A stretch of DNA of 25,074 nt from a virus. The notes beneath the pieces are model-generated. The model worked only from the letters and a program-made list of their open reading frames with translations, ran no database searches and had not been told where the DNA came from. Both the position numbers and the translations under genes were made by a program. The stretch is from positions 1-25,074 of the IMG/VR virus record IMGVR_UViG_3300010149_006393; one strand, written 5' to 3'. Positions 906 through 24,273 of this stretch are shown here, piece by piece; within the stretch, counting starts at the first letter, position 1; the number at the start of each line of letters is the position of its first letter.

Positions 906-1658
906 TTACCACTCATAAACCAAGTTAGACTTAATAACTAAGTCATTTGTCAAAATCCCTTCTGGTGGTTTCGTATCATACATAAAGTTTATAGAGTTTT
1001 CTATAAAAAGGCTTAAACTAGTTATTAAAATTGTACGGACGTTTGCTTCTAGATTTATTCTGTAGTCTTTGTGATTAGATAATAGAGGTTGATAATAAAG
1101 TGTTAACAGGATTAAATTCTTTTTCTTTTCATCAAACGATTTTAGAAAAGACAAGTAAGATGTACTTCGCCATAAAGTGCTAGTTTGTTTATCTAAAACT
1201 ACTTCATGATCAAACATTGCACCTGAGCCTAAACTAAGAGAAATATCTTCTTTTTTGATGAGCTCTGCTCTTAATCCTCCACCGTTTAGCTGTCTTATTT
1301 TAAGAGACTTAAATTCGTCTTGCTGAAGTTGTGTAAATAATTCTAGACCAATAATATTCCATTTCATCCATGTCCATCGAAAGTGAACAAAAGAATTATT
1401 TTTAAACTTTTTGTTAGATTGTTGACCTTGCGAATTTTTTGATTGCAAAAATACATGATGCTTTTTCTTTTTAAAATGAATTAAAAAATTTACATCAAAA
1501 GAAGTAATGTCGACGTTGCCTCTTTGAAGTTCGAGACCTCCTTTGACTTCTCCCCATAGTGGTTTTTTTTTATCATTATTTCTAATAGACTCAATATTAA
1601 CTTGACCAAAAGAAATATTAGGTAAAAGTAGTATTAAAATTAACAGTATTTTTTTCAT
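906..1658 (-). CDS. DUF481-like outer-membrane beta-barrel protein
   Basis: A 250-aa protein with a clear Sec signal peptide: Lys-Lys, hydrophobic ILLILILLLPNI, and a likely cut after SFG (residue 18). The mature part is made of alternating beta strands (GEVKGGLELQRGNVDITSFDVNF, GLELFTQLQQDEFKSL, GGGLRAEL) typical of the DUF481 'salt-induced outer membrane protein' family. It ends in Tyr-Glu-Trp, and a terminal aromatic residue is the usual BAM-recognition signal. Length fits the family. The start is preceded by AAGG, and the gene begins 9 nt after the stop of the lysozyme gene, so the two are probably co-translated. A bacterial-type barrel is unusual cargo in a phage. It could alter the host surface, for example in superinfection exclusion, or act in lysis, but nothing in the sequence decides this. 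Confidence 0.75.
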   Translation of the reverse strand: MKKILLILILLLPNISFGQVNIESIRNNDKKKPLWGEVKGGLELQRGNVDITSFDVNFLIHFKKKKHHVFLQSKNSQGQQSNKKFKNNSFVHFRWTWMKWNIIGLELFTQLQQDEFKSLKIRQLNGGGLRAELIKKEDISLSLGSGAMFDHEVVLDKQTSTLWRSTSYLSFLKSFDEKKKNLILLTLYYQPLLSNHKDYRINLEANVRTILITSLSLFIENSINFMYDTKPPEGILTNDLVIKSNLVYEW

Positions 1659-1667
1659 TTTGATACC

Positions 1668-2894
1668 TTACACAAATAAATGTTTATATATTTTTTTAAT
1701 TGACTCGTTCTGAAATGTTTTTATTGGTGTGTCAACAATTCCTAAATCATCAAGCGCGTTTAATATTTTTTCTATGTTTTTATTTGCTCTTGTTTTTAAA
1801 TCTTTTCGGTACTTAGAATCAAATATTTCTTTTGTAATTTCGTCTAAAAGATCTTTGTAGACGTACAAAGTTGCTTCGGATGGTGTTTTTTCCCCTATAT
1901 CATTAATAGAATCTAGTTCTTGTAATAATTTATGCAGCTTTTTAAATTTTAATATAAAACGACCGCCCATATTGTATGCCATATCGATTAAGGCTTCTTG
2001 AACACTTACAGGCATTTTGTCAAAATCAAATTTTGCAGATTTTTTTAGTCTATTTAATTCGTGATTAATTTTAACTTTAAGCATTTCTTTTGCTTTTTCT
2101 TCTGAAACAGGTTCACAATTTTCAGGTAGTGTATCTAAACCATGTAAATCTTTATACCATTTGTTTGGTGTAGACTTAAAAGTTTTAGATTTTTTTTCAA
2201 ATGTTCTACCGTAATATTTGTCTGCAAAGTCTGTAAGCTTTTTTAGACTTTGCTCGTCAGGTGATCTTGCGTATTCTGTGTAAAGTGAATCGTATTCTGA
2301 TCTAATCTGGTCGTGATAAGACGTGTCAATAAAGCTATCAGGGTTATCTGAAACTCTTGATCCATAACCGATACTCCACTGGTGGTGGTCTGGATAAGGT
2401 GTAGGTCTAAAGCCTTCATTTTCACCTACAATATCTATAATACGTTCGAAAGATAGATTTTTATCAAAATTAAAAACTACATCTTCTTCAACATTTACTT
2501 CTGCTGGTGTTGTTTTTTCTTTATTAACTTGTTTAATAATTTCGATAGCAGCCTTTTGTTCTGAAGAATTGAAATGTGTTGAATTATAAAGTAAAACTGC
2601 TGCCATAAAAGGTAATACAAATTTTGAAGTATTAATAAATTTTTGTAAATAACTTTTATATTTTGGATTTTTATTTGCAACGAATTCTATTTCTTTTTTA
2701 GTAGCTGGTCTATTTTCTTTATCGGTAACTATCGGGTATTCACCGACAGGATAATCCTGTCCTGGTAAATCATCTTTGAATACTGAATGAAATTTTTCAC
2801 TACTATTTTCACTTATATTTTGATAATTTTCAAAATCAACTAAAAAATTTTTAATCATATAGTGATTTTTTTTATTTTCTGCTATAATAATCAT
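1668..2894 (-). CDS. Membrane-anchored GH24 (T4-type) lysozyme
   Basis: A 408-aa protein. Residues 148-178 match the T4-lysozyme active-site region: E160 (ENEGF), D169 (PYPD) and S174 (QWSIGYGS) align with Glu11, Asp20 and Thr26 of T4 lysozyme, so the third residue is a conservative Thr-to-Ser change. Residues 296-313 (VSVQEALIDMAYNMGGRF) match the family's core helix. About 80 residues (181-262) are inserted between these parts. A single hydrophobic segment at about 91-105, with Lys on its N side, predicts a cytoplasmic N-terminus and a periplasmic catalytic domain, as in SAR or tail-anchored endolysins. The first ATG has AAAGG 6 nt upstream; the second ATG (Met13) does not. It would cleave peptidoglycan MurNAc-GlcNAc bonds during lysis, though a virion-borne role in entry is possible. 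It precedes the outer-membrane barrel gene. Confidence 0.85.
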   Translation of the reverse strand: MIIIAENKKNHYMIKNFLVDFENYQNISENSSEKFHSVFKDDLPGQDYPVGEYPIVTDKENRPATKKEIEFVANKNPKYKSYLQKFINTSKFVLPFMAAVLLYNSTHFNSSEQKAAIEIIKQVNKEKTTPAEVNVEEDVVFNFDKNLSFERIIDIVGENEGFRPTPYPDHHQWSIGYGSRVSDNPDSFIDTSYHDQIRSEYDSLYTEYARSPDEQSLKKLTDFADKYYGRTFEKKSKTFKSTPNKWYKDLHGLDTLPENCEPVSEEKAKEMLKVKINHELNRLKKSAKFDFDKMPVSVQEALIDMAYNMGGRFILKFKKLHKLLQELDSINDIGEKTPSEATLYVYKDLLDEITKEIFDSKYRKDLKTRANKNIEKILNALDDLGIVDTPIKTFQNESIKKIYKHLFV

Positions 2895-2927
2895 ACGATA
2901 CCTTTGACTTTATATTTAAGTATAATT

Positions 2928-3233
2928 ATGAAAGATAAAATGAATAAAGACGATTTATATATAATTCAGTCAGACGTAACTGGAATGATAAAAATAGGTA
3001 GATCTAAAAATCCTCAAAAAAGATTAAAACAGCTTCAAACTGGTAATCCAAATAAGCTAAAATTGATAGCTGCTTTTAAAGGTGACGGGTGGAAAGAAAA
3101 AATAGTTCATGAAAGATTAAGCAGATATAGACTTGAAGGTGAATGGTTTAGTTATGATTGTGTAGGTAGTATTCCTGATAATATGTATGAAAAAATTTTA
3201 TTTGGTTCTTTTGATGACTGGTGGAATAATTAA
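2928..3233 (+). CDS. GIY-YIG superfamily protein, T5orf172/MUG113 type
   Basis: A 101-aa protein if started at ATG 2928, or 97 aa from ATG 2940. An upstream in-frame ATG at 2862 lies inside the divergent lysozyme gene and encodes an unlikely leader, so I reject it. Numbered from 2928, residues 10-48 (LYIIQSD...MIKIGRSKNPQKRLKQLQTGNPNKLKLI) are the hallmark of the T5orf172 branch of the GIY-YIG nuclease fold. They are followed by H61-E62-R63 and GEWF (71-74), which carry the expected catalytic-region residues. Members are small and common in phages and are presumed DNA-binding or nuclease proteins; whether this one cuts DNA is unknown. It is divergent from the lysozyme gene across only 33 nt. 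A TATAAT at 2921-2926 lies just upstream. Confidence 0.85.
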   Translation: MKDKMNKDDLYIIQSDVTGMIKIGRSKNPQKRLKQLQTGNPNKLKLIAAFKGDGWKEKIVHERLSRYRLEGEWFSYDCVGSIPDNMYEKILFGSFDDWWNN

Positions 3234-4965: not shown

Positions 4966-5439
4966 TTATTCGTTGTCTAGTTTAGGAATCCATTCGTCAA
5001 CTTCAGTAGGAAGAATAACTTGTGATTGATCTTTTGTTTTAATTGGTTTATCACCTCCACTAAATACTGATAGTTTGTTTATTACTGCATTTTGTAATTC
5101 AAATATTTGTTCTCTCAAGAGTTGCATTTGAATCTGAGAGTCTCGTAAACGTGCTATAAGTGCAGCGCGATCTGCATTTGCACTTGCAAGCTTGTCTTTT
5201 AATTCTTCAACTTCAGATGGATCACGTCCACTAGCAATTGCTAACATAGAAGATATGCTACCAGTAAGCATACCTATAATTCCTATTAATATATCTCTAT
5301 TTTCTTCTACAATTTTCGTTGTTGACAAGAAATATATAAGCTCACAAATGCAAAACATAAATACAACACTTGCCCACCAACCTCGTTTAGCTTTGTCGCT
5401 TTTTGTAAATTGTTTATTTGTCTTATCTTCTTTTGACAT
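4966..5439 (-). CDS. Two-TM membrane protein with coiled coil, holin-like candidate
   Basis: A 157-aa protein. A positively charged N-terminus (residues 1-20, many Lys) is followed by TM1 (about 21-38, WWASVVFMFCICELIYFL), a short charged loop (42-49), TM2 (50-69, ILIGIIGMLTGSISSMLAIA), and a Glu/Lys/Arg heptad region (76-120) that should form a coiled coil. Both ends are predicted cytoplasmic. Size and topology fit class II holins or related phage membrane proteins, but no family motif is decisive. The ATG at 5439 is preceded by AAGAGAAG. It is the last gene of a minus-strand block, downstream of three paralogous beta proteins. A role in lysis or membrane remodelling is only an inference. 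Confidence 0.6.
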   Translation of the reverse strand: MSKEDKTNKQFTKSDKAKRGWWASVVFMFCICELIYFLSTTKIVEENRDILIGIIGMLTGSISSMLAIASGRDPSEVEELKDKLASANADRAALIARLRDSQIQMQLLREQIFELQNAVINKLSVFSGGDKPIKTKDQSQVILPTEVDEWIPKLDNE

Positions 5440-5451
5440 AAATCTTCTCTT

Positions 5452-5964
5452 TTACATTATTGAGTATATCATTGTATTAGATATTCCTGCTAAAAGTGTA
5501 TTACTTAAGTAATATCTTGTATTGTCAAAAAAATCAAGACCATTTAAACCCATTTCATTGTTATTATTCCATAAAGCAATTGCAAGGCCTATTTTTTTAT
5601 CTCCAGACCAAGTATCAATTACAAACTCTGACTTTACCAATCCAGATCTATAAGATGTATTTCCTCCTTGAGTGAATCCGTATTCTTTGTTATTTATTTG
5701 AATATCAGAAAAGTCACCTATAGTTGAATTATTTGCTGAGCTTGACCCAGTTACAATTTTTATATTTGCCCATGAACTAGCGTCAGGCAGGCCTGCTAGT
5801 TGAAAAACGTGACTATAGTATATATTTGTAGCATTTTTTGCACAAGAGTAAGTTATAACACTATCACTTATCATTTGCCAAGAAACAGACATAGGATAAG
5901 AAATTGTTGGCGAAGTTGTTTTGTAAATTTTAACTTTTTCTTTTTTGTTTTTAATGTAAGTCAT
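5452..5964 (-). CDS. Beta-rich virion-like protein, paralog 3 of 3
   Basis: A 170-aa protein, the most divergent of three tandem relatives. A Lys-rich N-terminus (residues 1-15) is followed by beta strands; SDSVITYS (33-40) and VIDTWSGDKKIGLAIA (115-130) correspond to the VTYTP and IDSWSGSKQLRL motifs of its neighbours. The QEYNGSxWVD motif is not preserved. The start has GGAGA at good spacing. It begins 3 nt after the previous stop, so the three genes are surely co-transcribed. The fold is likely a C1q/TNF-like or lectin-like beta sandwich, as on fiber tips; no enzymatic residues are apparent. Confidence 0.6.
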   Translation of the reverse strand: MTYIKNKKEKVKIYKTTSPTISYPMSVSWQMISDSVITYSCAKNATNIYYSHVFQLAGLPDASSWANIKIVTGSSSANNSTIGDFSDIQINNKEYGFTQGGNTSYRSGLVKSEFVIDTWSGDKKIGLAIALWNNNNEMGLNGLDFFDNTRYYLSNTLLAGISNTMIYSIM

Positions 5965-5967
5965 TTA

Positions 5968-6453
5968 TTAATCTCCGTTTATCATAGAATATACAGTTAA
6001 AACAGCTTGGGATTTTCTGTTGGTGTCAACAGAAGTTGTATAGTAAGTATTATGAACTCTGTAACCTCTGCCTGTAGGATTTGTCCAAGCTTTTGCGGCA
6101 AGTCTAATTTGCTTTGAACCTAACCAGCTATCTAAGATCATTCTATACGCAACTGGTATTGCAGCCGAGTCACCTTCAGCATAATAAGAAAATACTGTAT
6201 TACTTATATCTACCCAAGCTGATCCATTATACTCTTGCATTCTACCTCCTATAAAGACGGAGTTAGTATTATTAGCATTTTCAAATGAAAGCTGGAAATC
6301 ATATTCATATACTACAAAATCTGAATTTTCGTATGGAGTATATGTTATTTCTGATCCTTCGAAAGCTATTATATTAGTAGTAATATCTTCGACTATCGTT
6401 GGATTATTTGTGATAACAACTTTTTCGTTAAATATTTGATTTAAATTTGTCAT
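5968..6453 (-). CDS. Beta-rich virion-like protein, paralog 2 of 3
   Basis: A 161-aa protein with clear similarity to the gene before it: EITYTPYENSDFVVYEYDF (35-53), MQEYNGSAWVDISN (72-85) and LDSWLGSKQIRLAAKAW (107-123) align in order and spacing with the 6456 protein. The C-terminal segment after residue 125 differs and carries several Tyr and Thr (HNTYYTTSVDTN). It begins 2 nt after the preceding stop; its ribosome-binding sequence is weak (AAGTGAA), suggesting translational coupling. A jelly-roll adhesin domain is likely, by inference from strand pattern and neighbourhood. Confidence 0.65.
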   Translation of the reverse strand: MTNLNQIFNEKVVITNNPTIVEDITTNIIAFEGSEITYTPYENSDFVVYEYDFQLSFENANNTNSVFIGGRMQEYNGSAWVDISNTVFSYYAEGDSAAIPVAYRMILDSWLGSKQIRLAAKAWTNPTGRGYRVHNTYYTTSVDTNRKSQAVLTVYSMINGD

Positions 6454-6455
6454 TT

Positions 6456-6908
6456 TTATATTTCACTTACTTTTAGTATACACTTGCATTGATTATAATA
6501 ACTTGAGTTTCCTTGCCAATATTTGTTACCATATAAAATAAAGTCGTGATTGGAAGAATAGGCTTCACAATACAGTCTTAATTGTTTAGAGCCTGACCAA
6601 CTATCAATTGAAAATTTAATATTTACAATATGTGCTAATTGATTTGTAGTACCAAAAGATTTTGTACAATTACTAACATCTACCCATACTGATCCGTTAT
6701 ACTCTTGTAGTTTTACAAAACCAATGTCAGATAAGGCTGCTGCTGAGTGAGCGTGAAAAGTGTAGTCATATATAACTTTACTAGAAGTACTAATCGGAGT
6801 GTATGTCACTAAAGAGCTATCTAAAATGGTATCTGCATTTAACGTAATGTATGTAGGAGAAGAACTTTGTATAGTTATATTTGAATTTGAATTTATTGTA
6901 TAAGTCAT
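6456..6908 (-). CDS. Beta-rich virion-like protein, paralog 1 of 3
   Basis: A 150-aa protein, first of three tandem paralogs in transcription order. Motifs: LVTYTPISTSSKVIYDYTF (33-51), LQEYNGSVWVDVSN (67-80) and SIDSWSGSKQLRLYCEAY (100-117). An AGAG sequence precedes the start, and a TATAAT-like stretch lies about 35 nt upstream on the minus strand, just past the cyclase gene's end. The constant motifs form the inner strands, while loops and C-termini vary between paralogs, as expected of surface-binding domains that diversify after duplication. Receptor and virion location are unknown. Confidence 0.65.
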   Translation of the reverse strand: MTYTINSNSNITIQSSSPTYITLNADTILDSSLVTYTPISTSSKVIYDYTFHAHSAAALSDIGFVKLQEYNGSVWVDVSNCTKSFGTTNQLAHIVNIKFSIDSWSGSKQLRLYCEAYSSNHDFILYGNKYWQGNSSYYNQCKCILKVSEI

Positions 6909-6938: not shown

Positions 6939-7814
6939 TTAGTTTTCCATTATACCTTTGTAGATACTATATATATATTCTAAGAATATATTTACATCTC
7001 CTAAGTAGTATGATAAATCAATTCCTGTGGCAATAAAAAATAAATTGTTTGCATGAAGACTTCTAGATGTATGAAACAGACCAATGATTATATAAACAAA
7101 CAACGCAAATGCAGCTCTATAAAGTAACCACCAAAATATTTCTTTTATTGTTTTATTTCTAAGCCTAACTTTTATTTTTTTTGCGCCACCTAATCTTTTT
7201 ACTTTTTCACCGCTTTGCGGAGGTTGTATGTGTGCTTCTTCGAGACCCATTACATAGACTTGTTCAGGTTTTTTAACACCTTTAAACTGGTATAGTCCAG
7301 CAAGTGCTATTTTGGCTTCTTTGGGAATAAACCTGTTAGACTTAGTTCTTTCTTTAAATTTTAAAAATGCTGACTTGCTTAATAGAATTTGATTTGGCCC
7401 GCATATACTCATTGTTCGTGCTGCAATGTTTTTACCTATTCCTTCAAGATTTATTCTTTTTCCGCCTGCACGAACCATATGCTCTTCAGACTTAACAATA
7501 AGCATTTTAGCCCAGTGTATTCCGACACGAGATTGAAAAGGTATTTTCTTTTTCTTTAGGAAGTTTTTATAATCAAAACCAAATGCTATTGCATCTTGTA
7601 CTGTAGGGAAGTACATTAGATGACCATCAGAAGCATCTACAAGCTGGCCGTTATGTCTTGCAATAAAATTCATTACATATCTATCATGTATCCCAAACCA
7701 TAAAGCAGCAGCTTTAGAGCCATTTCTTTGAACAAACTTTGTACTACCAATAATATCAGTTAATACTATTGCAATCCAGTGTTCAACCATGTTTTGAGGT
7801 AAATCATTACTCAT
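6939..7814 (-). CDS. Class III nucleotide cyclase with C-terminal membrane anchor
   Basis: A 291-aa protein whose residues 12-190 form a class III cyclase homology domain. Visible active-site elements: D20 in VLTDIIGSTKF (metal), D63 in DASDGHLMYF (second metal), RVGIH (96-100), and N129/R133 in GIGKNIAARTM, the transition-state Asn and Arg. IALAGLYQFKGV (169-180) matches the domain's end. The Lys that reads adenine in adenylate cyclases, normally just before the second metal Asp, is missing: the segment reads LVDASDG. Substrate may therefore not be ATP; Pycsar PycC enzymes, which make cCMP or cUMP, also lack the adenylate-cyclase pair. A basic stretch (205-224) precedes a TM helix (about 225-247), with a further weakly hydrophobic tail, placing the domain in the cytoplasm. 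The start ATG overlaps the stop of an upstream mini-ORF, implying coupled translation. Confidence 0.85.
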   Translation of the reverse strand: MSNDLPQNMVEHWIAIVLTDIIGSTKFVQRNGSKAAALWFGIHDRYVMNFIARHNGQLVDASDGHLMYFPTVQDAIAFGFDYKNFLKKKKIPFQSRVGIHWAKMLIVKSEEHMVRAGGKRINLEGIGKNIAARTMSICGPNQILLSKSAFLKFKERTKSNRFIPKEAKIALAGLYQFKGVKKPEQVYVMGLEEAHIQPPQSGEKVKRLGGAKKIKVRLRNKTIKEIFWWLLYRAAFALFVYIIIGLFHTSRSLHANNLFFIATGIDLSYYLGDVNIFLEYIYSIYKGIMEN

Positions 7815-7869
7815 TTATACACTCACATTTGCATTTATTACATTTACAATATTTTATATCTGAAGACAT
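7807..7869 (-). CDS. 20-codon Cys-rich mini-ORF upstream of the cyclase
   Basis: A 20-aa frame with ATG at 7869 and TAA at 7807-7809. It carries five cysteines in ten residues (CKCNKCKCEC, residues 8-17). AAAAGG lies 8 nt before the ATG, a better site than the one before the cyclase. Its stop lies within the start region of the cyclase frame (ATGAGTAA), so the cyclase start is read while terminating this ORF. The Cys spacing suggests a metal-binding, metallothionein-like peptide, or a redox-sensitive leader controlling cyclase translation. Too short for family assignment; the good ribosome-binding site, Cys density and exact overlap are the grounds for calling it. Confidence 0.55.
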   Translation of the reverse strand: MSSDIKYCKCNKCKCECINE

Positions 7870-7936: not shown

Positions 7937-8215
7937 ATGTTAGATAAGACACCTTTAAAGAGCAAGAAGTTTATAGCATATTTAATAGCAGACTTTGGAT
8001 GGAAAATAGTTATCTTATATATGTTGACGCATCTTAAGTCTAAGCTATCACCTGAAGAATTGACATTTTTGTTAACGATTGTAATCACAAGTGGTATAAT
8101 ACAGATTGGGTATATTTTGGGGCAAGCTGCCTTAGACAAGTATGTTAATGCTGCCATTGAAATTTTTGATAGGGATAAAAACGAAGAAAAGAAAGAATTA
8201 AAAGATGAAAAATAG
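7937..8215 (+). CDS. Small two-TM protein, holin-like
   Basis: A 92-aa protein with a basic N-terminus (KSKK, 8-11), TM1 (about 12-31), a short turn with a Lys/Glu pair (34-41), TM2 (42-64), then a highly charged C-terminus (DRDKNEEKKELKDEK). Two helices, both ends in the cytoplasm and a charged tail match class II or similar small phage holins. Being near, but not next to, the lysozyme keeps this a candidate only. The start ATG follows AGGAC at about 9 nt. The following gene overlaps its last 11 nt, so the two are translated together. The minus-strand frame covering the same span is judged a shadow. Confidence 0.6.
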   Translation: MLDKTPLKSKKFIAYLIADFGWKIVILYMLTHLKSKLSPEELTFLLTIVITSGIIQIGYILGQAALDKYVNAAIEIFDRDKNEEKKELKDEK

Positions 8216-13470: not shown

Positions 13471-13503
13471 TAGAAAGGTTTTATAATGACACTTAAAAAC
13501 TCA
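13471..13503. repeat. Right arm of 33-nt perfect inverted repeat
   Basis: Exact reverse complement of 13402-13434. It spans AGAAAGG, the ATG and the first six codons of PIN-PhoH. Perfect identity in coding as well as non-coding bases, including third codon positions, points to recent duplication or gene conversion rather than protein-level selection. Confidence 0.95.
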
Positions 13504-14808
13504 AAAAAATTATTTATTGTTGATACGAGCGTTCTTTTATATGATAAAAGTTGTATAGAAAACTTTAAGGGAAATGATGTTGTTATTCCTCTTGTCGTTT
13601 TAGAAGAATTGGATAAATTTAAGTCAAGAGAAGGTATTTTAGGAGAAAATTCAAGATATTTCAATAGATTTCTTGACGAACTAAGAAGTAACGGTAGTCT
13701 TCACGACGGAATATATCTTGAAGATCTTAATACGTCAATTAGAATAGAATCAAATAATTGTTGGGAAGGATTAACAAATTTAGATTCAAATTCAAATGAT
13801 AATTTAATAATTGCAACAGCAAATTATCTCAGAAAAAATAATGAAAGTTATGAAGATATTATAGTAATAACTAAAGACATAAACTTAAGAGTAAAATGTG
13901 ATGCTATAAATATTGCTGCAAATGATTACTATGCTGACTATGAGTTTCTAATAAATAAAAACATATTCTTGGGAATTAACCAGATTGAAGTAGAAAGAAA
14001 CGTAATTGACGACTTATACAATAATAAGCATATAGTCCTACGAAAGATTCCAGAGTTAACTGAAGTATGTGAAAATGAATGTGTTGTTCTTAAATCGAAA
14101 GACGAATCATCTTCAGCCTTGGCGATAAGAAAGTTTAACAGTTTAGTTTTAGCTACAAGCAAGCAAGATATTTTTAAAAAAACAAAACTAGAAGCAAAAA
14201 ACAAAGAACAGATATTTGCGCTAAATCTTTTGTTAGACGAAAATATTTCTTTAATGACAATGACAGGTGTTCCTGGAAGTGGAAAAACATATTTAGCACT
14301 AATGACAGCACTAAGTGAAATCGAAAAAGAGAAGAAAAAAAGAATTATATTCACTAGACCTATACAAACAGTAGGTAAAGACATAGGATTTCTTCCAGGT
14401 TCTTTAAGCGAAAAGATGGCACCGTGGTTATCACCTATTGTAGACAACTTCAGAAATCAGTTTGGCGACTTAACATATTTCAATATGATGATGGAAAAAG
14501 GTATCATCGATGTCGCACCTTTATCCTATATAAGGGGTAGAAGTTTTAATGATGCAATTATAATTGTTGACGAAGCACAAAATGCTACTGTTCACGAATT
14601 AAAGACTGTAATTACACGTACAGGTAAAAATTCAAAAATAATTCTACTAGGTGATATTGAGCAAGTAGATTTGCCATATATAAATAAGTATTCTAACGGT
14701 TTAACAATAGTTATTGAAAAACTTAAAAAAGAAAATCTAGTAGGTCATATTCATTTTGAAAAAGGCTACAGATCAGACTTAGCTAATATTGCTGCTAAAT
14801 TATTGTAA
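13486..14808 (+). CDS. phoH: PIN-PhoH fusion: RNase domain plus P-loop ATPase
   Basis: A 440-aa protein. The PIN nuclease domain covers residues 8-160, with acidic residues D13 (IVDTSVLL), E40/E41 (LEELDKF), D105 (NDNLIIATA) and D131 (TKDINLR) in the usual places. The PhoH ATPase follows: Walker A GVPGSGKT (261-268), Walker B IIIVDEAQN (358-366) and LLGDIEQVDLP (388-397). This is the PhoH2/YlaK layout, studied as ATP-dependent RNA unwinding and cleavage in mycobacteria. T4-like cyanophages often carry only the ATPase half, so the fused PIN domain is notable. AAAGG lies 8 nt before the ATG. The first six codons are identical to those of the divergent sigma-4-like gene. It probably acts in RNA turnover during infection. 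Confidence 0.92.
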   Translation: MTLKNSKKLFIVDTSVLLYDKSCIENFKGNDVVIPLVVLEELDKFKSREGILGENSRYFNRFLDELRSNGSLHDGIYLEDLNTSIRIESNNCWEGLTNLDSNSNDNLIIATANYLRKNNESYEDIIVITKDINLRVKCDAINIAANDYYADYEFLINKNIFLGINQIEVERNVIDDLYNNKHIVLRKIPELTEVCENECVVLKSKDESSSALAIRKFNSLVLATSKQDIFKKTKLEAKNKEQIFALNLLLDENISLMTMTGVPGSGKTYLALMTALSEIEKEKKKRIIFTRPIQTVGKDIGFLPGSLSEKMAPWLSPIVDNFRNQFGDLTYFNMMMEKGIIDVAPLSYIRGRSFNDAIIIVDEAQNATVHELKTVITRTGKNSKIILLGDIEQVDLPYINKYSNGLTIVIEKLKKENLVGHIHFEKGYRSDLANIAAKLL

Positions 14809-15389: not shown

Positions 15390-18300
15390 ATGGCAGCAAA
15401 AGACTTTTTAAGTAATCAAATAAAAGTAGAAAAGATAATAGGCTCAAATTCAACGGGACCTAAACTTTTAGTATATCCGGATGGAAAAAGTACAAACGAT
15501 ACAGGTGGTATTGATTCATCAATGCTTGCAAACGTCGGATCAGATACATTTTTATTTGTTAGCGGATCAATTTTTGGAAAAGATAGGGGAGATGCAAATT
15601 CTGTTTCTGTTTTTGGTGGAGACGTCGTCGTAAGCGGTACCTTATATGCTGAAAGACAGGTCATAGAAGTTGATGAAGTACTGCCTGGTTATCTTTACGT
15701 TTCAGGCAGTCTAGCAGTTACCGGAAGTTCAATATTTAACTTAAACAAGACAGGAGATTCAGATTTTATTGTCAAGTCTCTTAATAAAGACAATGCAATT
15801 AAAGTTAATTCACTAGAAAATACAATACAATTTATGTCTGGTGGGTCTCCAACATCACCAGACGAATCAAAATATACAGATACAAATTACTTTGTTAGCG
15901 GATCAATAGGGTCAGCACATCAGCCATCAATAGGTCCACAAATCGGAAATGGAGATAGAGGTACTAGTGTTTTTGGCGGTGATGTTTTTGTTAGTGGTTC
16001 TATGTGGGCACGTGCCTTTAATGTAACAAATCTATCAGTTGATGGTGATACTATAAATCTTAAAGGTTATGAAGAAAATGGTTCGTTTTTATCAAGAAAC
16101 GTTGTTGAAGGATTTAATTCGATAGCATTAGGTACAAACAATGTTATAGAAAGTAAAAATTCTTTTGTTTTAGGCTCAAAAAACAACAGAATAGAAGGCA
16201 AAGATGATTTTGCCAACAGCTCAATAATATCTTCAATTGGTTCAACCATTTCAGGATCAAATAGTTCTATAATACTAGGCGGACAAAACAATGAGATTAA
16301 AGACTTTGCAGCACCTAGTTATGTTGCTTTTTCAAATAATGTCAAAGTAAGCCGCGCGGAAATTCTCGCACTTTATAGTAATGATCTAATCGCAAGCGGT
16401 ACAGTTAGTGAAACATTTGTTTTAGGCGCTAGTAATACTGTAATTGGTGCTCCAGAAGATGTTACTAGATTTAATCACGTTTTAGGACGAAATAATAAAA
16501 TTTACGGTGTTAATAGAAGTTTTATTTTAAACTTTTCAGATGAAGAAACTTATAAACCTGAAAACTTAGATAACCCTGAACCTTTAACATTAGTTTCTGG
16601 ATCTAATAATAGTTTTGTAGTTTCTAGAGGCAGTGACTTTATTTCTGGGTCTTACTCAAATGTAATTTTTACAGAAAACTCTGACTATACACTTGTTGAA
16701 GACTCGTTCATAAGTGGCAAAGAAAATACTTTACATAATGTTAAAAATTCAACAATATTTGAAAACAATATCAATACGACCGGATCAAACTATTTAACAG
16801 CTATTGGAGGTGCTAACTCTAATTACTCTGATGATAGTGTTGATGATTTAAATGATAGATTAACTAAAAGTGGAGTAAATTACTTATCGTCTCCTGGGTT
16901 TAATGTTTCATTAGGCGGCGACTTCTCTCAAATAAGTGGATCATACAATTCGCTAATTGGAGGTGCTGCAAATAAAGTTACTGGTTCAAATTCATCTATT
17001 ATTGGATCAATAGGGTCAACAATATCTAATTCAACAGGCTCAGTGATATTAGGTGGAGTAGACAATAGTACTAGTGCAAATGAAAACTTTATTATAGGAA
17101 CTGATAACACTTCTTCAGGTGAAAGATCTTTCTTGCTTGGACGAAATATTACAAATGACAGTGACGACTTTTATATAATTGGAAACGGTCAAGATTCTTC
17201 TAATACGAGCTTAGTCCTAAGCGCGTCAAAGTTTGAATTTGGAAACTTATCTAAAGAAAAAGTTTACGGTGCTGATACTAGCTTTTTCGTTAGCGGTTCA
17301 ATTGGTGCAAGAAGTAGATTTTTTGCAGGAAACACAAATAAAGATGAGTATTATGGCGTCTCTGTCTTTGGCGGTGACGTTCACATATCAGGCTCTCTTA
17401 CAGGAGGAAATTTTGAATTAACAAAATTATTCTTCGAGGGCGGCGAAGCAAAAGGAGTTGCTCGAGCTCTTGGTAATAAGGATGCATTTGATCTTAATTT
17501 TCTAACAAATAATTTCAATAGAGTTAATATTGATGGTGTTTCTGGAAGTCTAACTTTAGGAGGAATGATTCCTGCTGGCGAAGAAGAACACGTTCAATTG
17601 CACATTAGAACAGGCTCCGATGGGAGTTTTGATTTTAATAGTTCTTTAGATAAGTCACCTGCAAGTGAATTTCCTTTACTTATATCTAGAAACATATCAC
17701 AACCATCAGAAAATCAAGGTACTGGCAAAGAAGTAGGTTTAGCATTTTCATCATTCCCGACTTTAGGCATTAGCGATGAAGGATTAATAGATGAACCCGG
17801 TGCAGCTATAACACATAGAACAACAGGGTTCAATGCTAAAGGTGATCTTTTATTTAAAACAAAAACTGAAGTAGGACAAATATCATTAGGCGCTGCAGGT
17901 TCTTTAACAACTAAACTTGCCATTACAAGTGCAGGCGAAATGCTTCTCGGAAACGATAATCCTCAAGGTCACTACATTGATTTAAGAGTTACTGGTAGTG
18001 AGTGGCCTTTAATACAAGCATCAGGTTCTACACCTTCAGGAAGAATAATTTCTATTGGCGAAAACAAAAATGATACAAAAGGATTAAACCAGAAAGATAC
18101 AATTTTTAATGTTTACGGCTTTCCAGGATCGAAAAAGCTTTTACAAAATAGTCGATTAGTTTCTTCATTTGGCGGAGACGTTGTTGTAAGCGGTTCTTTA
18201 TATGTTGAAGCTCAACCTGGTGATGCGAGTTCACCGGGGATTGATTTAGATGGTTCTCTTTTAATAAAAGGTGATATTGAAAGCAAAGAACATAATCTGG

Positions 18301-18758
18301 ATATTAAAGCACCCGACGGAGATATTATATTAAACGCCGAATACGACGTAATTGTTGAAAAAGATTTAGTAGTAAAAGGCAATATTACAGGTTCACATAT
18401 AAAAGGTGACGGTTTAGAAATATCAAACGTCAACAAATCTTCAATATGGGAAGTAGTTGGCACAGATCCGGTTACTGGTGGAACTTTATTGTCACCGGGA
18501 GATTTTATAGACGGAAACACTGGAGTTCATATGGTAGACTTATTTGCGACAATAGACGAATCAAGGATACAAGGCAGACCTGAAATAGCATATTCTCCTA
18601 CAACAAATACGCGATTATATGATACTTATTTTGAAATAGAAAAAGATGCTATTGGTCAAGTAAAATATAAAAATTCTTCTACTGGTGTTGAAGGAACAAA
18701 GCCAATAGAAACTGAAAGAGTTGAGTCTCCTGAGCAATTAATCATTTCGCTTAAATAA
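15390..18758 (+). CDS. Giant fiber protein with YadA-like head repeats
   Basis: A 1122-aa protein starting 3 nt after the previous stop, with GAGAG just upstream. A module 'FVSGSIG...SVFGGDVxVSGS' occurs four times in whole or in part (near 15610, 15968, 17365 and 18167). Residues about 240-600 form a long left-handed beta-roll of the YadA-head type, with repeats such as NSIALGTNN, NSFVLGSKNN, SSIILGGQNN, SVILGGVDN and FIIGTDN. The N-terminus is short and the C-terminus beta/alpha (RLYDTYFEIEKD...QLIISLK), without a recognisable S74 peptidase/chaperone domain. No signal peptide, as expected for a virion part assembled in the cytoplasm. Probably a trimeric tail or baseplate fiber. Such repeats are best known from bacterial trimeric autotransporters, so the same fold serves here without the membrane anchor. 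Confidence 0.8.
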   Translation: MAAKDFLSNQIKVEKIIGSNSTGPKLLVYPDGKSTNDTGGIDSSMLANVGSDTFLFVSGSIFGKDRGDANSVSVFGGDVVVSGTLYAERQVIEVDEVLPGYLYVSGSLAVTGSSIFNLNKTGDSDFIVKSLNKDNAIKVNSLENTIQFMSGGSPTSPDESKYTDTNYFVSGSIGSAHQPSIGPQIGNGDRGTSVFGGDVFVSGSMWARAFNVTNLSVDGDTINLKGYEENGSFLSRNVVEGFNSIALGTNNVIESKNSFVLGSKNNRIEGKDDFANSSIISSIGSTISGSNSSIILGGQNNEIKDFAAPSYVAFSNNVKVSRAEILALYSNDLIASGTVSETFVLGASNTVIGAPEDVTRFNHVLGRNNKIYGVNRSFILNFSDEETYKPENLDNPEPLTLVSGSNNSFVVSRGSDFISGSYSNVIFTENSDYTLVEDSFISGKENTLHNVKNSTIFENNINTTGSNYLTAIGGANSNYSDDSVDDLNDRLTKSGVNYLSSPGFNVSLGGDFSQISGSYNSLIGGAANKVTGSNSSIIGSIGSTISNSTGSVILGGVDNSTSANENFIIGTDNTSSGERSFLLGRNITNDSDDFYIIGNGQDSSNTSLVLSASKFEFGNLSKEKVYGADTSFFVSGSIGARSRFFAGNTNKDEYYGVSVFGGDVHISGSLTGGNFELTKLFFEGGEAKGVARALGNKDAFDLNFLTNNFNRVNIDGVSGSLTLGGMIPAGEEEHVQLHIRTGSDGSFDFNSSLDKSPASEFPLLISRNISQPSENQGTGKEVGLAFSSFPTLGISDEGLIDEPGAAITHRTTGFNAKGDLLFKTKTEVGQISLGAAGSLTTKLAITSAGEMLLGNDNPQGHYIDLRVTGSEWPLIQASGSTPSGRIISIGENKNDTKGLNQKDTIFNVYGFPGSKKLLQNSRLVSSFGGDVVVSGSLYVEAQPGDASSPGIDLDGSLLIKGDIESKEHNLDIKAPDGDIILNAEYDVIVEKDLVVKGNITGSHIKGDGLEISNVNKSSIWEVVGTDPVTGGTLLSPGDFIDGNTGVHMVDLFATIDESRIQGRPEIAYSPTTNTRLYDTYFEIEKDAIGQVKYKNSSTGVEGTKPIETERVESPEQLIISLK

Positions 18759-18792: not shown

Positions 18793-21700
18793 ATGTCAAT
18801 ATTAGTACCAAAAGCGCATAGAGACGGCTCTCAACTTGGTATGCATAAAAGAGAATGGTCAAATATTCTTTCTGAGCAAATATATTCTTCAGCTTCAATT
18901 ATTGATGGCGCAGTAATAACTTCAGGCTCAACTAGTCTTTTGGTTGATGGAAGACCACTAATTACATCTCCTTTTACAGAAGCCAGCATTTCAACCGAAT
19001 TAGCAGACGGCATAATTGGCTTACGCCTCAATAACTTAATGAAGCCAACAGCTGACTATGACATGGACGGCAATACACTAACTTCAGTTAGAACTCCTAC
19101 TTCTGCAGGTGAAGTTGCGACAAAGTATTATGTTGATCAAAATATTCAAGGCTTAAAGTGGAAACAGTCTGTTAGAATATCTTCACATTTAGAAGATCCA
19201 GACGCCAAACATTGGTCTAAAGGTGAACTAGTCTTAGTTTTTCAAGAGCAAACACCAGACTTACAGGATTATAAATTAATTGATGGTAACGAAGGTTGGC
19301 ATTATAACTCAAGCACAGAAGTTCTAACCTGGAAATACCCGACAGCTGTACAATATCTAAAACACCCGTCAAGCACTACAACAACCACTACCACAACACC
19401 TTTAAACAGTGGAAATCAGAATCTTATACCTACAAGTATAAATCACGTTTACCCACATCCAAATGGAGTACACTATAAGTCTGCAAATATTGATGATGTT
19501 TCTCTTGAAGATAGAAAAATAAACTTTAGAGAATTAATGTTTGACAGAGGTTTAGATAGTGCACCAGCTTATGGTGAAATTCAAATTGGTGATAGAGTTT
19601 TAATAAAAAATGCAACGCCTAAAACCATGAATGGTATATGGTTTTTTGAACAAACTGGTTCAAATTTACCTTATTCTACTTCGATAACTCATCCAGAACA
19701 TGAGTGGAATTGGAGTTTAAAAAGAGCATTAGATTTTGATCATAGTAGTGAAGTTTCTTCAGCAGCAGTTTTTATTGAAGAAGGTAATAAAAACGAAGAC
19801 AAGAGTTATGTTGTTACAACAAATACATCTTCGATAGCAGCACAAGCCATTGGCACTTATGATGTTGACTGGGCTATCTTTGGAACACAATTAGGCGACG
19901 ACATAACAATCTATAGAGATGCAACGCAAAGTGATCGATTTGAAGTCACCGGTGTTCTTAGAGATATTAACGATATCTTTTATGACTATACAACTGCAGG
20001 TAATTATGATGGTATAACTGGTAGAAAAAAAGTAATAGACGGAGAATTTCTTGTAGGTAATGGAACAACTTTTGTTGCTGAAAGTGGTAACGATGTTAGA
20101 TTGTCAATGGGGCTTGGCGATACAGATAGTCCTACGTTTGCAAACTTAACATTGACAGGTGGGGCTTTAACAGCTTCACACTTAATATCAAATAGCAACA
20201 ACGGTGCAGATCCAATAACAATTAAAAGCAATTTATCAGGAACATTTGAAATAACAGGTTCAAGTATTCGTTTAGATGAAGATTTAAATGCAAAAGATAT
20301 TGTAGCAAGAACCTTACTTACTTCTAAAGGTAATGCTCAAATAGACGGTAACTTAAATTCAAGTAATAACATAACTGCAGGAAAATCAATTTCAGCGCAA
20401 TTTGTAACTGCATCTGTTGCATTAAGCGCAAGTTATCTACAATTAAAAGAGTTTAACAATGTTACAGAGTTTACTACTACAAATGGTTATCCTACACAAA
20501 ACTCTTTATATATTGCTAATAATGCTTTATATTTTGATGGCACACAAATAGGAGGCTCAGGAGGCGGAGGTCAGCCTATAGAAAACGTTTTATATTACGG
20601 TGGTAATATAGTCTCGGATATTGCTTCTAGCAGCACGCAAGACCATTCAAACGCAGTCCTTTATATGCGTTTAGGTGTATCAGGTAGTCATTTAAGTGCA
20701 ATTACTGACGCAGCTGGAAGAGCAAATTATTACCAAATTCTTACAGGCTCTTTCCAAGAATTAACAGGGACTAAAGTAGATATTAATGGTGGTACTATAG
20801 ATTCAACTGTTATCGGTGGTTCTATACCGGCTGTTGGTACATTTAGTACATTAAATACTAATAATGCTAAAATAACAGGCGGTGAAGTTACTGGTAGTTA
20901 CGGAAAATTTACAGTACTTTCAGGTTCAGATGTAGATATTAATGGAGGTAGAATTGATAATACTGATATTGGGCTTGACGTAGCAGCACACGGTGTATTT
21001 ACTAATTTGACTGGCTCGACTCATATACACACACCTTTAGCCGAAATTGGCCGAATAGAATTAGAAGGTACTGGTACCCCTGGATTCATAGCAAATACAA
21101 TTATAGGTATGGATAGAAACGGTAGTACTAGCGCTCAAAGAGGTATGTTTACTCAGTTAACTGCTAGTCAGGGGATTGAAACTACTGGAATTAGTACACT
21201 TAACGGTACTAACAAAGCCCTTAGTAGAATAAGCAACTTTACAATTGATAATACATGCCAGATTGATGCAACAACCACTACAGCAACAGATGCCAACTTT
21301 ACAAATTTGAAGGTAACTAATTTACAAATGCCTCAAAATGGTACTACAGATGATCCTGCTAATGTAGGTAATCATTATTTCAAGCTTTTTGCAGATTCCA
21401 ATGTTCGAAGTGAAATTACACACAGATCAGGCAAAGAATTATTAATCAAAGCCACTGAAATGACGGGTACTAGAGCATACTTTAATCATATAGAAGTTAA
21501 AGCTGGTGAAGTTACTGCTAGTTACGGAAACTTTACTTCACTAACTGGCTCGAAAGCTTTATTTTCCGAAGCTATTATTAATAATGCTAAGATAACTGCA
21601 GGTGAAATGACCGGTAGTTACGGAGAGTTTGTAATACTCTCAGGTTCAGACGTAGACATTAATGGTGGCACAATTGACAATGTAATTATAGGCGAAGATA

Positions 21701-24273
21701 CCGATGCAAATAAAATTACACACGGTAGATTTGACACATTAACTGGCTCAGTTTCTTATATAGGCGATCCAGCTTTGCATGGTAGCACATCTTCTAGCGC
21801 ATATAAGAGTTTTGGTAGATTCTTAACACTATCAGCTTCACATGTAGAAATATTAGATCCTGATTCACAAAATCACGGCGTTTTTGAGCACTTGACTGGA
21901 TCTTATATTAGAATTGAAAACGAATTGAGTGCTAGTGAAGGTGCTACAATTGGCTTCGGTGGTAATGTAATAGGAAACGTTGGAACGCCAGATACGTCCA
22001 CAGCAAATCGAAAAGCCGCAGTTAATAGAGAATACATTGATACTGTTGTAGCAATTAAAACTTCCGTAAGATTAGCTCATATGGACGGTAATAAAAATCT
22101 TTTGATAGACTTACAATCGGGGGATAACATTGACGGAGTTGAGCTAGCAGTAGGTGATAGAGTTCTTTTAGCTGCTCAAACTGATCCGAAAGAAAATGGA
22201 ATATGGGAAGTTACAGGCCCCGGAGCTGCATTAAGGCCCTTTGATTATGCTACAGATGATCCAATAGGTGAATTTATTGTATATGTCAAAGAAGGTAATG
22301 GTAATAAGAAAAGTATATTCTCGATAACAAGACCTGATGATAATTCAACTGGTATAATAGATACAGACACAGTTGTTGTTACAAAAATATCTAGTCACTT
22401 TGGTGTTTCAACAGCTGGCAAGGGATTAAATAAGACAAATTCTTTATTTAGTGTAAACATTGCTGAAGGGGGTATTGATGACACCAACTTTAGAGATAGA
22501 TCAAATCTAACATTTGATGATAGATCAGGTGCTGATCCTAGACTATTGCTTTCATCATCTATTAGAGTTGATGCATTAAAAGTAATAGATGAAACTGGAA
22601 ATACTGGCGAAATATTTATAAGCGGTAGTGCTGATTCTCGCATTGACAATGTTAAGATTGGTATGACAACACCTGCTGACGCTCAATTTGCTAACATAAC
22701 TATGAAGTCAGGCAAGACCAAATTTGACACAGACTATGTATTAACATCTTCAAACGGGTCAACAAATACTTCAATTGGTTTACATAAAGGTGAGTTTGAA
22801 GAAATTCATGTTCCTAATTCATTTGTTGCTGACAATAATGACCCTTCAGGAGAAAATAGAGTTATAATTTCTGGTTCGCTAATAATGGAAAATAGCAAGC
22901 CAAACAATACTACTAAAAGAATCTACGTTAAAGATGGCGATTTATACTATCAAGATGATAGAATAGGTTTCGGAAGTGGTGGAGGAGCTGCTACAGGAGC
23001 AGTTACAAAGATACCTGACTTTACATCAATATTTGTCACAGGCTCACAAGCTGACGGGCATGGTGCATTTATATCTGGATCTTTGGTTGTTGAAGGTGAC
23101 GTTCATATTAAAGGAACAACAACAACAATATCATCCTCCAATACAACATTCCAAGATTCAATATTAGGATTAGGAATTACAGGATCAGATGCAGGTACTG
23201 AAGAATTTAACAATTTAGGTGATAGAGGTTTAATATTTGCAAGAGGTGCAAATCAAACTGATGCACTGCCAGGTATGTGGTGGGATGGATCTAAATTTAA
23301 TTTTGCTAAGTCTATAACTTCACCATCATCAGGATCTTTTGGCACAGTAACTGATAGATCTACTATTAGAACAGGAGACGTAGAAGCTGAAGAAATTTCT
23401 GCTACGTCTTTAGACGCTTCATCAGTAACAGCAAGTCTTGGTCTTCGAGTCGGTAACGCTATAGACGGGTATGAATTACCAACATCAGACGGAAACACAA
23501 ATCAAGTTCTACAAACAGACGGAAGCGGAAACCTTACTTTTGCTGATCAAGCTGCAGGACAGAATTCGTTCCTTGTTAAAAGAATTCCAATAACCGTAAA
23601 CCCTACAGCGACAGGCAATGAAATATCTATTAGCCTTGACGATAAAAGCCCAGACATTATTTATTTGGACTTTGCTAATATAGATGTTGCTACTTCTGCA
23701 TACAGCCCATCAGGTAATAACGTTCACTATTTATCAGTTATTCTTTCAAACGTTAAAGATTCATTGTTTGCTTTACCTGAAAGAGAATTTTACCTAGGAA
23801 TTAGAGGTTTTGATCATGATGAATATACTAAGTCAAATTTTGGTTTTGGTGATGGCGGTTTAGCAGTGAGAATTATTTTCTCAGACAATGAAATGAGTTC
23901 AAGTCCATACAATTTAAGACGCAGAAGTACTGCAGATACTACCACAGCTTTATTTAATAACCGGCCAGCACTTTGGACTACAATTAGCGACGCCGGTTAT
24001 ATGAATTTATCCTCACCAAAATCATTAGACAGTGCTTCTTTTAACCCCGACGCGACGTGGTATAGCCACGACTTTCAATTTACTGGAGGGTTTCTTACAC
24101 AATTTGAAGCCTCGAGTGCAATTTTTGATCGCTGTATAACAGATGATAATAAAATATTTTGTTTTAAGTATACAATTGTTAAGGGAGGCATCAATGAGCC
24201 TATGGAACTAGTTACAGACTATAAAAACATAGAAATATTTTCAGTTAATGATTCTAGATTTACGCAGCTATAA
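18793..24273 (+). CDS. Giant tail fiber protein with tandem beta-solenoid repeats
   Basis: A 1826-aa protein; AAAGGA lies 8 nt before the ATG. Domains: a basic N-terminal region (VPKAHRDGSQLGMHKREW), then the fiber motif ATKYYVDQNIQGLKWK (109-124), a Thr run (194-203), and a GDRVLIKNAT...NGIWFF module near 262-285. A second copy of this pair, AAVNREYIDTVVAIKTSVR plus GDRVLLAAQT...NGIWEVTG, sits near 1075-1142. Between them nine copies of G-x-F-x-x-L-(T/S)-(G/A)-S-x-x-x-I (20833-21916) form a solenoid-like stretch, with TGSYG(K/E)F and SDVDINGG(R/T)ID units. The C-terminal 250 residues are a separate beta domain (FYLGIRGFDHDEYTKSNF...) likely to bind the receptor. No enzyme motif. It is part of an operon of adhesins. 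Confidence 0.85.
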   Translation: MSILVPKAHRDGSQLGMHKREWSNILSEQIYSSASIIDGAVITSGSTSLLVDGRPLITSPFTEASISTELADGIIGLRLNNLMKPTADYDMDGNTLTSVRTPTSAGEVATKYYVDQNIQGLKWKQSVRISSHLEDPDAKHWSKGELVLVFQEQTPDLQDYKLIDGNEGWHYNSSTEVLTWKYPTAVQYLKHPSSTTTTTTTTPLNSGNQNLIPTSINHVYPHPNGVHYKSANIDDVSLEDRKINFRELMFDRGLDSAPAYGEIQIGDRVLIKNATPKTMNGIWFFEQTGSNLPYSTSITHPEHEWNWSLKRALDFDHSSEVSSAAVFIEEGNKNEDKSYVVTTNTSSIAAQAIGTYDVDWAIFGTQLGDDITIYRDATQSDRFEVTGVLRDINDIFYDYTTAGNYDGITGRKKVIDGEFLVGNGTTFVAESGNDVRLSMGLGDTDSPTFANLTLTGGALTASHLISNSNNGADPITIKSNLSGTFEITGSSIRLDEDLNAKDIVARTLLTSKGNAQIDGNLNSSNNITAGKSISAQFVTASVALSASYLQLKEFNNVTEFTTTNGYPTQNSLYIANNALYFDGTQIGGSGGGGQPIENVLYYGGNIVSDIASSSTQDHSNAVLYMRLGVSGSHLSAITDAAGRANYYQILTGSFQELTGTKVDINGGTIDSTVIGGSIPAVGTFSTLNTNNAKITGGEVTGSYGKFTVLSGSDVDINGGRIDNTDIGLDVAAHGVFTNLTGSTHIHTPLAEIGRIELEGTGTPGFIANTIIGMDRNGSTSAQRGMFTQLTASQGIETTGISTLNGTNKALSRISNFTIDNTCQIDATTTTATDANFTNLKVTNLQMPQNGTTDDPANVGNHYFKLFADSNVRSEITHRSGKELLIKATEMTGTRAYFNHIEVKAGEVTASYGNFTSLTGSKALFSEAIINNAKITAGEMTGSYGEFVILSGSDVDINGGTIDNVIIGEDTDANKITHGRFDTLTGSVSYIGDPALHGSTSSSAYKSFGRFLTLSASHVEILDPDSQNHGVFEHLTGSYIRIENELSASEGATIGFGGNVIGNVGTPDTSTANRKAAVNREYIDTVVAIKTSVRLAHMDGNKNLLIDLQSGDNIDGVELAVGDRVLLAAQTDPKENGIWEVTGPGAALRPFDYATDDPIGEFIVYVKEGNGNKKSIFSITRPDDNSTGIIDTDTVVVTKISSHFGVSTAGKGLNKTNSLFSVNIAEGGIDDTNFRDRSNLTFDDRSGADPRLLLSSSIRVDALKVIDETGNTGEIFISGSADSRIDNVKIGMTTPADAQFANITMKSGKTKFDTDYVLTSSNGSTNTSIGLHKGEFEEIHVPNSFVADNNDPSGENRVIISGSLIMENSKPNNTTKRIYVKDGDLYYQDDRIGFGSGGGAATGAVTKIPDFTSIFVTGSQADGHGAFISGSLVVEGDVHIKGTTTTISSSNTTFQDSILGLGITGSDAGTEEFNNLGDRGLIFARGANQTDALPGMWWDGSKFNFAKSITSPSSGSFGTVTDRSTIRTGDVEAEEISATSLDASSVTASLGLRVGNAIDGYELPTSDGNTNQVLQTDGSGNLTFADQAAGQNSFLVKRIPITVNPTATGNEISISLDDKSPDIIYLDFANIDVATSAYSPSGNNVHYLSVILSNVKDSLFALPEREFYLGIRGFDHDEYTKSNFGFGDGGLAVRIIFSDNEMSSSPYNLRRRSTADTTTALFNNRPALWTTISDAGYMNLSSPKSLDSASFNPDATWYSHDFQFTGGFLTQFEASSAIFDRCITDDNKIFCFKYTIVKGGINEPMELVTDYKNIEIFSVNDSRFTQL

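Follow-up and report, generated by a model that had tools for sequence, protein, structure and literature searches.

The window analysed here, the whole stretch of DNA, is a 25,074-base IMG/VR virus record from an uncultured phage. The parts of it that bear on the argument are the following, with the basis of each assignment in brackets:

4966-5439, minus strand: gene D, 157 aa, two predicted transmembrane (TM) helices followed by a long coiled-coil-like helix (same-strand linkage, TM prediction)
5452-6908, minus strand: three small ORFs (5452-5964, 5968-6453 and 6456-6908) between genes C and D (window ORF list)
6939-7814, minus strand: gene C, class III nucleotidyl cyclase of 291 aa with a C-terminal TM anchor (ORF, profile, fold, relatives)
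7083-7139, minus strand: predicted TM helix of gene C, residues 226-244 (hydropathy)
7416-7451, minus strand: codons of N122 (7449-7451, the Asp position of adenylyl cyclases), N129 (7428-7430) and R133 (7416-7418) (118-sequence alignment)
7626-7757, minus strand: codons from D20 (7755-7757) to D63 (7626-7628), including D60 (7635-7637) and A61 (7632-7634) (118-sequence alignment)
7807-7869, minus strand: remnant of gene B, 20 codons, a Cys-rich small protein overlapping the cyclase start (comparison with relatives)
7937-8215, plus strand: gene A, 92 aa, two hydrophobic segments (hydropathy, locus comparison)

Gene C is an open frame of 291 codons with an ATG start, and its product is a class III nucleotidyl cyclase by fold and by catalytic residues, as the initial annotation had proposed. 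The AF2 model (pLDDT 79.6) adopts the class III cyclase fold, superimposing on Ma1120 with Z 22.1 and an rmsd of 2.0 over 161 residues and on Rv1900c with Z 21.4 (VIA-align); Rv1900c is also matched by Foldseek at E 1e-12. At the sequence level, a first search of the PDB matched Rv1900c/LipJ at ~1e-6 and Ma1120 at ~1e-5, and a family-level profile search returned the same two proteins as best matches (LipJ 1.7e-15, Ma1120 5e-14), making adenylyl cyclases the nearest solved structures. The Pfam scan of the window protein gave no match, PF00211 not being reached, whereas the relatives L053, L064, L097 and L117 pass the gathering score of that family. The strongest family match is NCBIfam TIGR04510 (mod_pep_cyc, the N-terminal domain of putative peptide-modification system cyclases), at 6e-32 over residues 15-207 and up to 2e-48 in relatives, although only about residues 7-204 align to the 814-position model and the 111 bits fall short of the cut-off of 400 for the full-length model. 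The C-terminal membrane anchor that had been described is present as a single predicted hydrophobic helix (residues 226-244), spanned in the AF2 model by a helix at residues 223-251.

The metal-binding Asp and the Arg are shared with the mycobacterial class III adenylyl cyclases Rv1900c (LipJ) and Ma1120, at 20-24% identity. Gene C differs from them in having lost one residue of the loop before D63, in its TM anchor and in having a constant partner gene; it also has no lipase domain.

The family is widespread in uncultured phages. Scans of viral contigs gave relatives of gene C with identities from 100% down to 51%, further contigs lying at 51-80%, and a broader alignment recovered 298 viral stretches with relatives, on some 300 uncultured IMG/VR contigs. 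The catalytic part has a dN/dS of ~0.05-0.1, an estimate for which dS is near saturation. Because of the relatives at 51-80% identity, the ~300 viral relatives and the low dN/dS, gene C is not a chance ORF. In isolate phage records the window cyclase and two D proteins had no match, and among 50,697 such records a cyclase relative found one weak match (26% identity), in an unannotated faecal fragment. Plasmids gave just distant cellular cyclases at 23-32% identity, and D was not found there; PHROGs hold no family for the cyclase. No relative of gene C came up in two pattern scans, a method that can overlook distant kin, over 84,980 species of bacteria and archaea (one genome each). The earlier statement that such cyclases are rare in phages therefore holds for isolates but fails for uncultured phages, in which ~300 contigs carry the family.

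Residues were counted over 118 distinct near-full-length family members. D20, D60, D63, R96, K119, E124 and R133 are invariant (118/118), and N129 is retained in 115, the three divergent exceptions carrying Ala. The metal Asp D20 and D63, the transition-state N129 and R133 and the LVDASDG motif all lie at the sites previously given for gene C. The Ala substitution counts against an active enzyme, although active Ma1120 naturally has Ala at this site (PMC4215837).

The base-reading positions behave differently. The adenine-reading Lys is indeed absent from gene C, as had been noted from the LVDASDG motif, but its equivalence is ambiguous because of the deletion before D63: the profile alignment places the invariant D60 opposite the Lys, whereas the relatives suggest position 61. 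Position 61 is Arg in 96 of the 118 cyclases, Lys in one and Ala, Ser or Asn in 21. It is linked to position 122, which corresponds to the Asp position of adenylyl cyclases: all 97 sequences with Arg or Lys at 61 have E122, and all 21 with Ala, Ser or Asn have N122. The latter state defines a 21-member clade that includes the window, and the window clade thus lacks the adenylyl-type Lys/Asp pair, its residues in the window itself being N122 and A61, or D60 if the profile alignment is followed. The linkage was considered as independent evidence of covariation and rejected, since in the tree the clade forms a single long branch (100/100 support), so that the switch is one event and not a repeated one. 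The window clade has lost a basic/acidic pair, R/K61-E122, that the rest of the family retains at what are likely the base-reading positions. This points to a changed base pocket without naming the base, and the window clade may use another nucleotide than its relatives do.

Loss of the Lys does not by itself imply a product other than cAMP, because an active cyclase keeps its use of ATP after a Lys to Glu change: in Ma1120 K101E the kcat/Km for ATP falls only from 1.25 to 0.82, so that most of it is kept (PMC4215837). Of the "non-adenylate" label formerly given to gene C, the loss of the base-reading pair in the window clade stands, whereas a product other than cAMP is not established. Pyrimidine reading in PycC uses other residues, F100, R142 and Q144 in EaPycC (PMC11224242), and two positions before the first metal Asp, where EaPycC has F100, 116 of the 118 cyclases have Leu.

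A survey of the neighbours in related phages, which the initial annotation had suggested, reveals a constant same-strand partner that it had overlooked. This partner, gene D, is present in 61 of 61 distinct cyclase loci; the second most frequent neighbour is a ThyX-like ORF, in 23. A scan with D alone gave 274 viral relatives; among the best 80, 79 carry a same-strand cyclase and the contig of the 80th starts 71 bases before D. Conversely, D is found in 77 of the best 80 of the 298 cyclase stretches; in the remaining three the contig breaks off no more than 70 bases from the cyclase. Wherever the contig reaches far enough, the same-strand linkage is therefore complete, 79/79 from D and 77/77 from the cyclase, in two sets that overlap. 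In most relatives C adjoins D directly, without the three ORFs that intervene in the window, and in 42 of 50 loci the frames overlap or lie close together (-30 to +60 bp). Their constant pairing, their close or overlapping frames and the persistence of the pair in dissimilar surroundings speak for a joint action of C and D.

D is also better conserved than the cyclase, with a mean identity of 69% against 51%. Locus L073 combines a cyclase of no more than 37% identity to the others with a D that is still 79% identical, suggesting that D depends on cyclase activity more than on one particular cyclase sequence. The L073 cyclase (5145-5951) is of a long-branch type with Lys61 and Ala at the Asn129 position, and its D lies at 5998-6519; replacement of the cyclase beside a kept partner is possible at this locus.

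The profile matches of D are weak. SLATT, for which pore formation in response to nucleotides has been predicted (PMC7159879), weakly matches 31 of 35 D proteins (best E 5e-5), and the window D scores 14.8 bits against the 26.5 of the PF18142 gathering score. Matches to CBASS 2TM, CARF_TM and PycTM lie at 0.007-0.012, the PycTM model matching one of the 35 proteins (E 0.012). Like SLATT and CBASS 2TM effectors, D has a pair of TM helices ahead of a cytoplasmic helix and lies beside a nucleotide enzyme, but the likeness is below the curated cut-off and is not clearly distinguishable from membrane-composition noise. The matches to signal-gated TM effectors are only suggestive, because the unrelated polytopic AbrB family scores nearly as well as SLATT (22/35, best 1e-4), and membrane composition could explain the SLATT similarity. 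Matches to PD-T4-6 (10/35, best 0.001) fall on the helix region and were set aside as coiled-coil noise. No TIR family appears among the D matches listed, fold searches with D in the PDB and in viral models gave nothing significant, and in PHROGs D weakly matches phrog_9990, a family without assigned function, alone, with the holin profile phrog_27838 at E 0.13. The cNMP-binding domain PF00027, found in 10 of 14 control genomes, is absent from 15 phage records (~2.35 Mb), which leaves D as the sole constant candidate receptor.

The C-D pair occurs in very different surroundings, on contigs of up to 376 kb. In the window and in L010 its neighbours are tail and lysis genes, in L112 and L053 terminase and portal genes. 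Some loci have lysozyme or amidase ORFs at a distance of up to 7 kb; next to C-D in the terminase/portal setting, lysis genes were not recognised. Genes A and B accompany the pair in part of the loci. Of 61 distinct loci, 22 have gene A close to the module; in the window it is on the opposite strand. Gene B, reduced to a remnant in the window, is full length (69-95 aa) in many relatives (e.g., L004 9799-10011, L010 9708-9995), and the Cys-rich protein that it encodes directly upstream of the cyclase probably binds metal.

Other small genes recur around the module. In terminase/portal-type loci, too, the cyclase has a Cys-rich small ORF (cluster 40) ahead of it. Lipoprotein-like small ORFs that contain Cys recur near the module (L053 4913-5128, L122 3748-3981, L047 11432-11689), and in jumbo-type contigs lipoprotein-like ORFs of clusters 22 and 25 lie directly upstream of the cyclase. 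The window encodes a DUF481 outer-membrane-type protein (906-1658, minus strand; Pfam 5.5e-17), and clustering (cluster 14) finds DUF481-like ORFs no further than 7 kb from the module in 10 of the 61 distinct loci, jumbo-sized contigs included. A T5orf172/MUG113 (GIY-YIG-like) protein (2862-3233, plus strand) is kept in 11 of 61 module loci, and a PIN-PhoH (PhoH2-type) protein with strong profile matches is encoded at 13486-14808 on the plus strand. Two large ORFs of 1122 and 1826 aa (15390-18758 and 18793-24273, both plus strand) contain many VSGS/TGS-type repeats and probably encode virion fibre or appendage proteins; the former has no PHROG match.

Pycsar (PycC and PycTM; PMC11224242) is a known system of similar layout, each being a two-gene pair of a class III-type cyclase with a small TM protein. 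However, C-D is carried by phages and Pycsar is a bacterial defence, and D does not reach profile membership of PycTM. The PADLOC PycC profile matches the window cyclase weakly, at 0.0017, and the best-scoring relative (L037) at 3e-5; in the PDB the uridylate cyclase 8jsz is found at E 0.045. With these weak profiles, and with PycC absent from the 50 best structural matches listed, direct kinship to PycC, for which the initial annotation had suggested a profile search, was not adopted, the nearest structures being adenylyl cyclases. C-D apparently resembles Pycsar in architecture and is not descended from it. Adenylate cyclases have also been reported in the curli (T8SS) clusters of pelagiphages (PMC9599517); they are phage-encoded like gene C, but are reported with curli genes and not with D, and the likeness is one of description alone. 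The open literature that was searched contains no paper on a cyclase with a D-type TM partner in phages.

Together these data suggest, with a probability of roughly one half, that an active, membrane-anchored cyclase and D form a phage-owned two-gene module in which C controls D and which probably acts on the host membrane late in infection. In such a module, C would make a cyclic mononucleotide locally at the inner membrane. D, with its two TM helices and long cytoplasmic helix, would be the membrane effector or receptor under cyclase control, responding either to the cyclic nucleotide directly or to contact with the cyclase. The module would probably act late on the host membrane, either in timing lysis or in shutting out other phages. 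Some observations count against parts of this model: the SLATT similarity of D is weak and D has no fold match, D is more conserved than the cyclase, unlike a typical fast-evolving immune effector, and only some loci have recognisable lysis genes in the neighbourhood of the module. The pair could also be a physical complex without a diffusible signal.

Several explanations compete with this module. An unlikely one is a phage-borne exclusion system similar to Pycsar, in which the cyclase would sense a competing phage and its product would open D, so that the competitor is stopped. The architecture is that of PycC with PycTM, the weak PycC matches and the single weak PycTM match fit, and dissimilar phages carry C-D as one unit, but membership of neither PycC nor PycTM is significant, Leu replaces the EaPycC Phe before the first metal Asp, D is very conserved and a sensor has not been identified. 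An envelope or lysis cassette, in which D would resemble a holin and lysis would be timed by the cyclase or by what it makes, is similarly improbable. The small two-TM character shared by D and A, the nearby lysozyme and amidase ORFs and the lipoprotein-like ORFs that recur beside the cyclase are in keeping with it; it sits poorly with the terminase/portal loci, where lysis genes were not recognised, and with a holin match to D of just 0.13.

Reprogramming of host transcription or metabolism by cAMP, cGMP or another cNMP, or a decoy for a host Pycsar system, with D merely localising the cyclase, would agree with the complete set of catalytic residues, the switched base pocket in the window clade and the cyclase of the pelagiphage curli clusters (PMC9599517). 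Since it leaves the constancy and higher conservation of D unexplained, it is considered quite doubtful. A catalytically inactive scaffold with a cyclase fold, serving to assemble D in the membrane, would account for the altered base-reading positions, the Asn to Ala change in three relatives and the deletion before D63, yet the invariance of D20, D63, R133, K119, E124 and others in 118 sequences, with N129 kept in 115, and the strong purifying selection on the catalytic part make it very improbable.

Cyclic nucleotide anti-phage systems have been described as a bacterial property, with phages responding by degrading or sequestering the signal. In a phage family where a cyclase and a membrane protein always occur as a pair, the two would represent a signalling module on the phage side. 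Uncultured phages commonly carry the module, and isolate collections lack it apart from one weak match, which may explain its absence from the literature that was found. The linked switch at positions 61 and 122, at likely base-reading positions, provides a sharp and testable prediction on nucleotide choice. Tentatively, uncultured and partly jumbo-sized phages may own a second-messenger circuit in which a cyclase product controls a dedicated two-TM effector, a form of viral signalling as opposed to bacterial defence or counter-defence, and whose base specificity may have changed in one clade.
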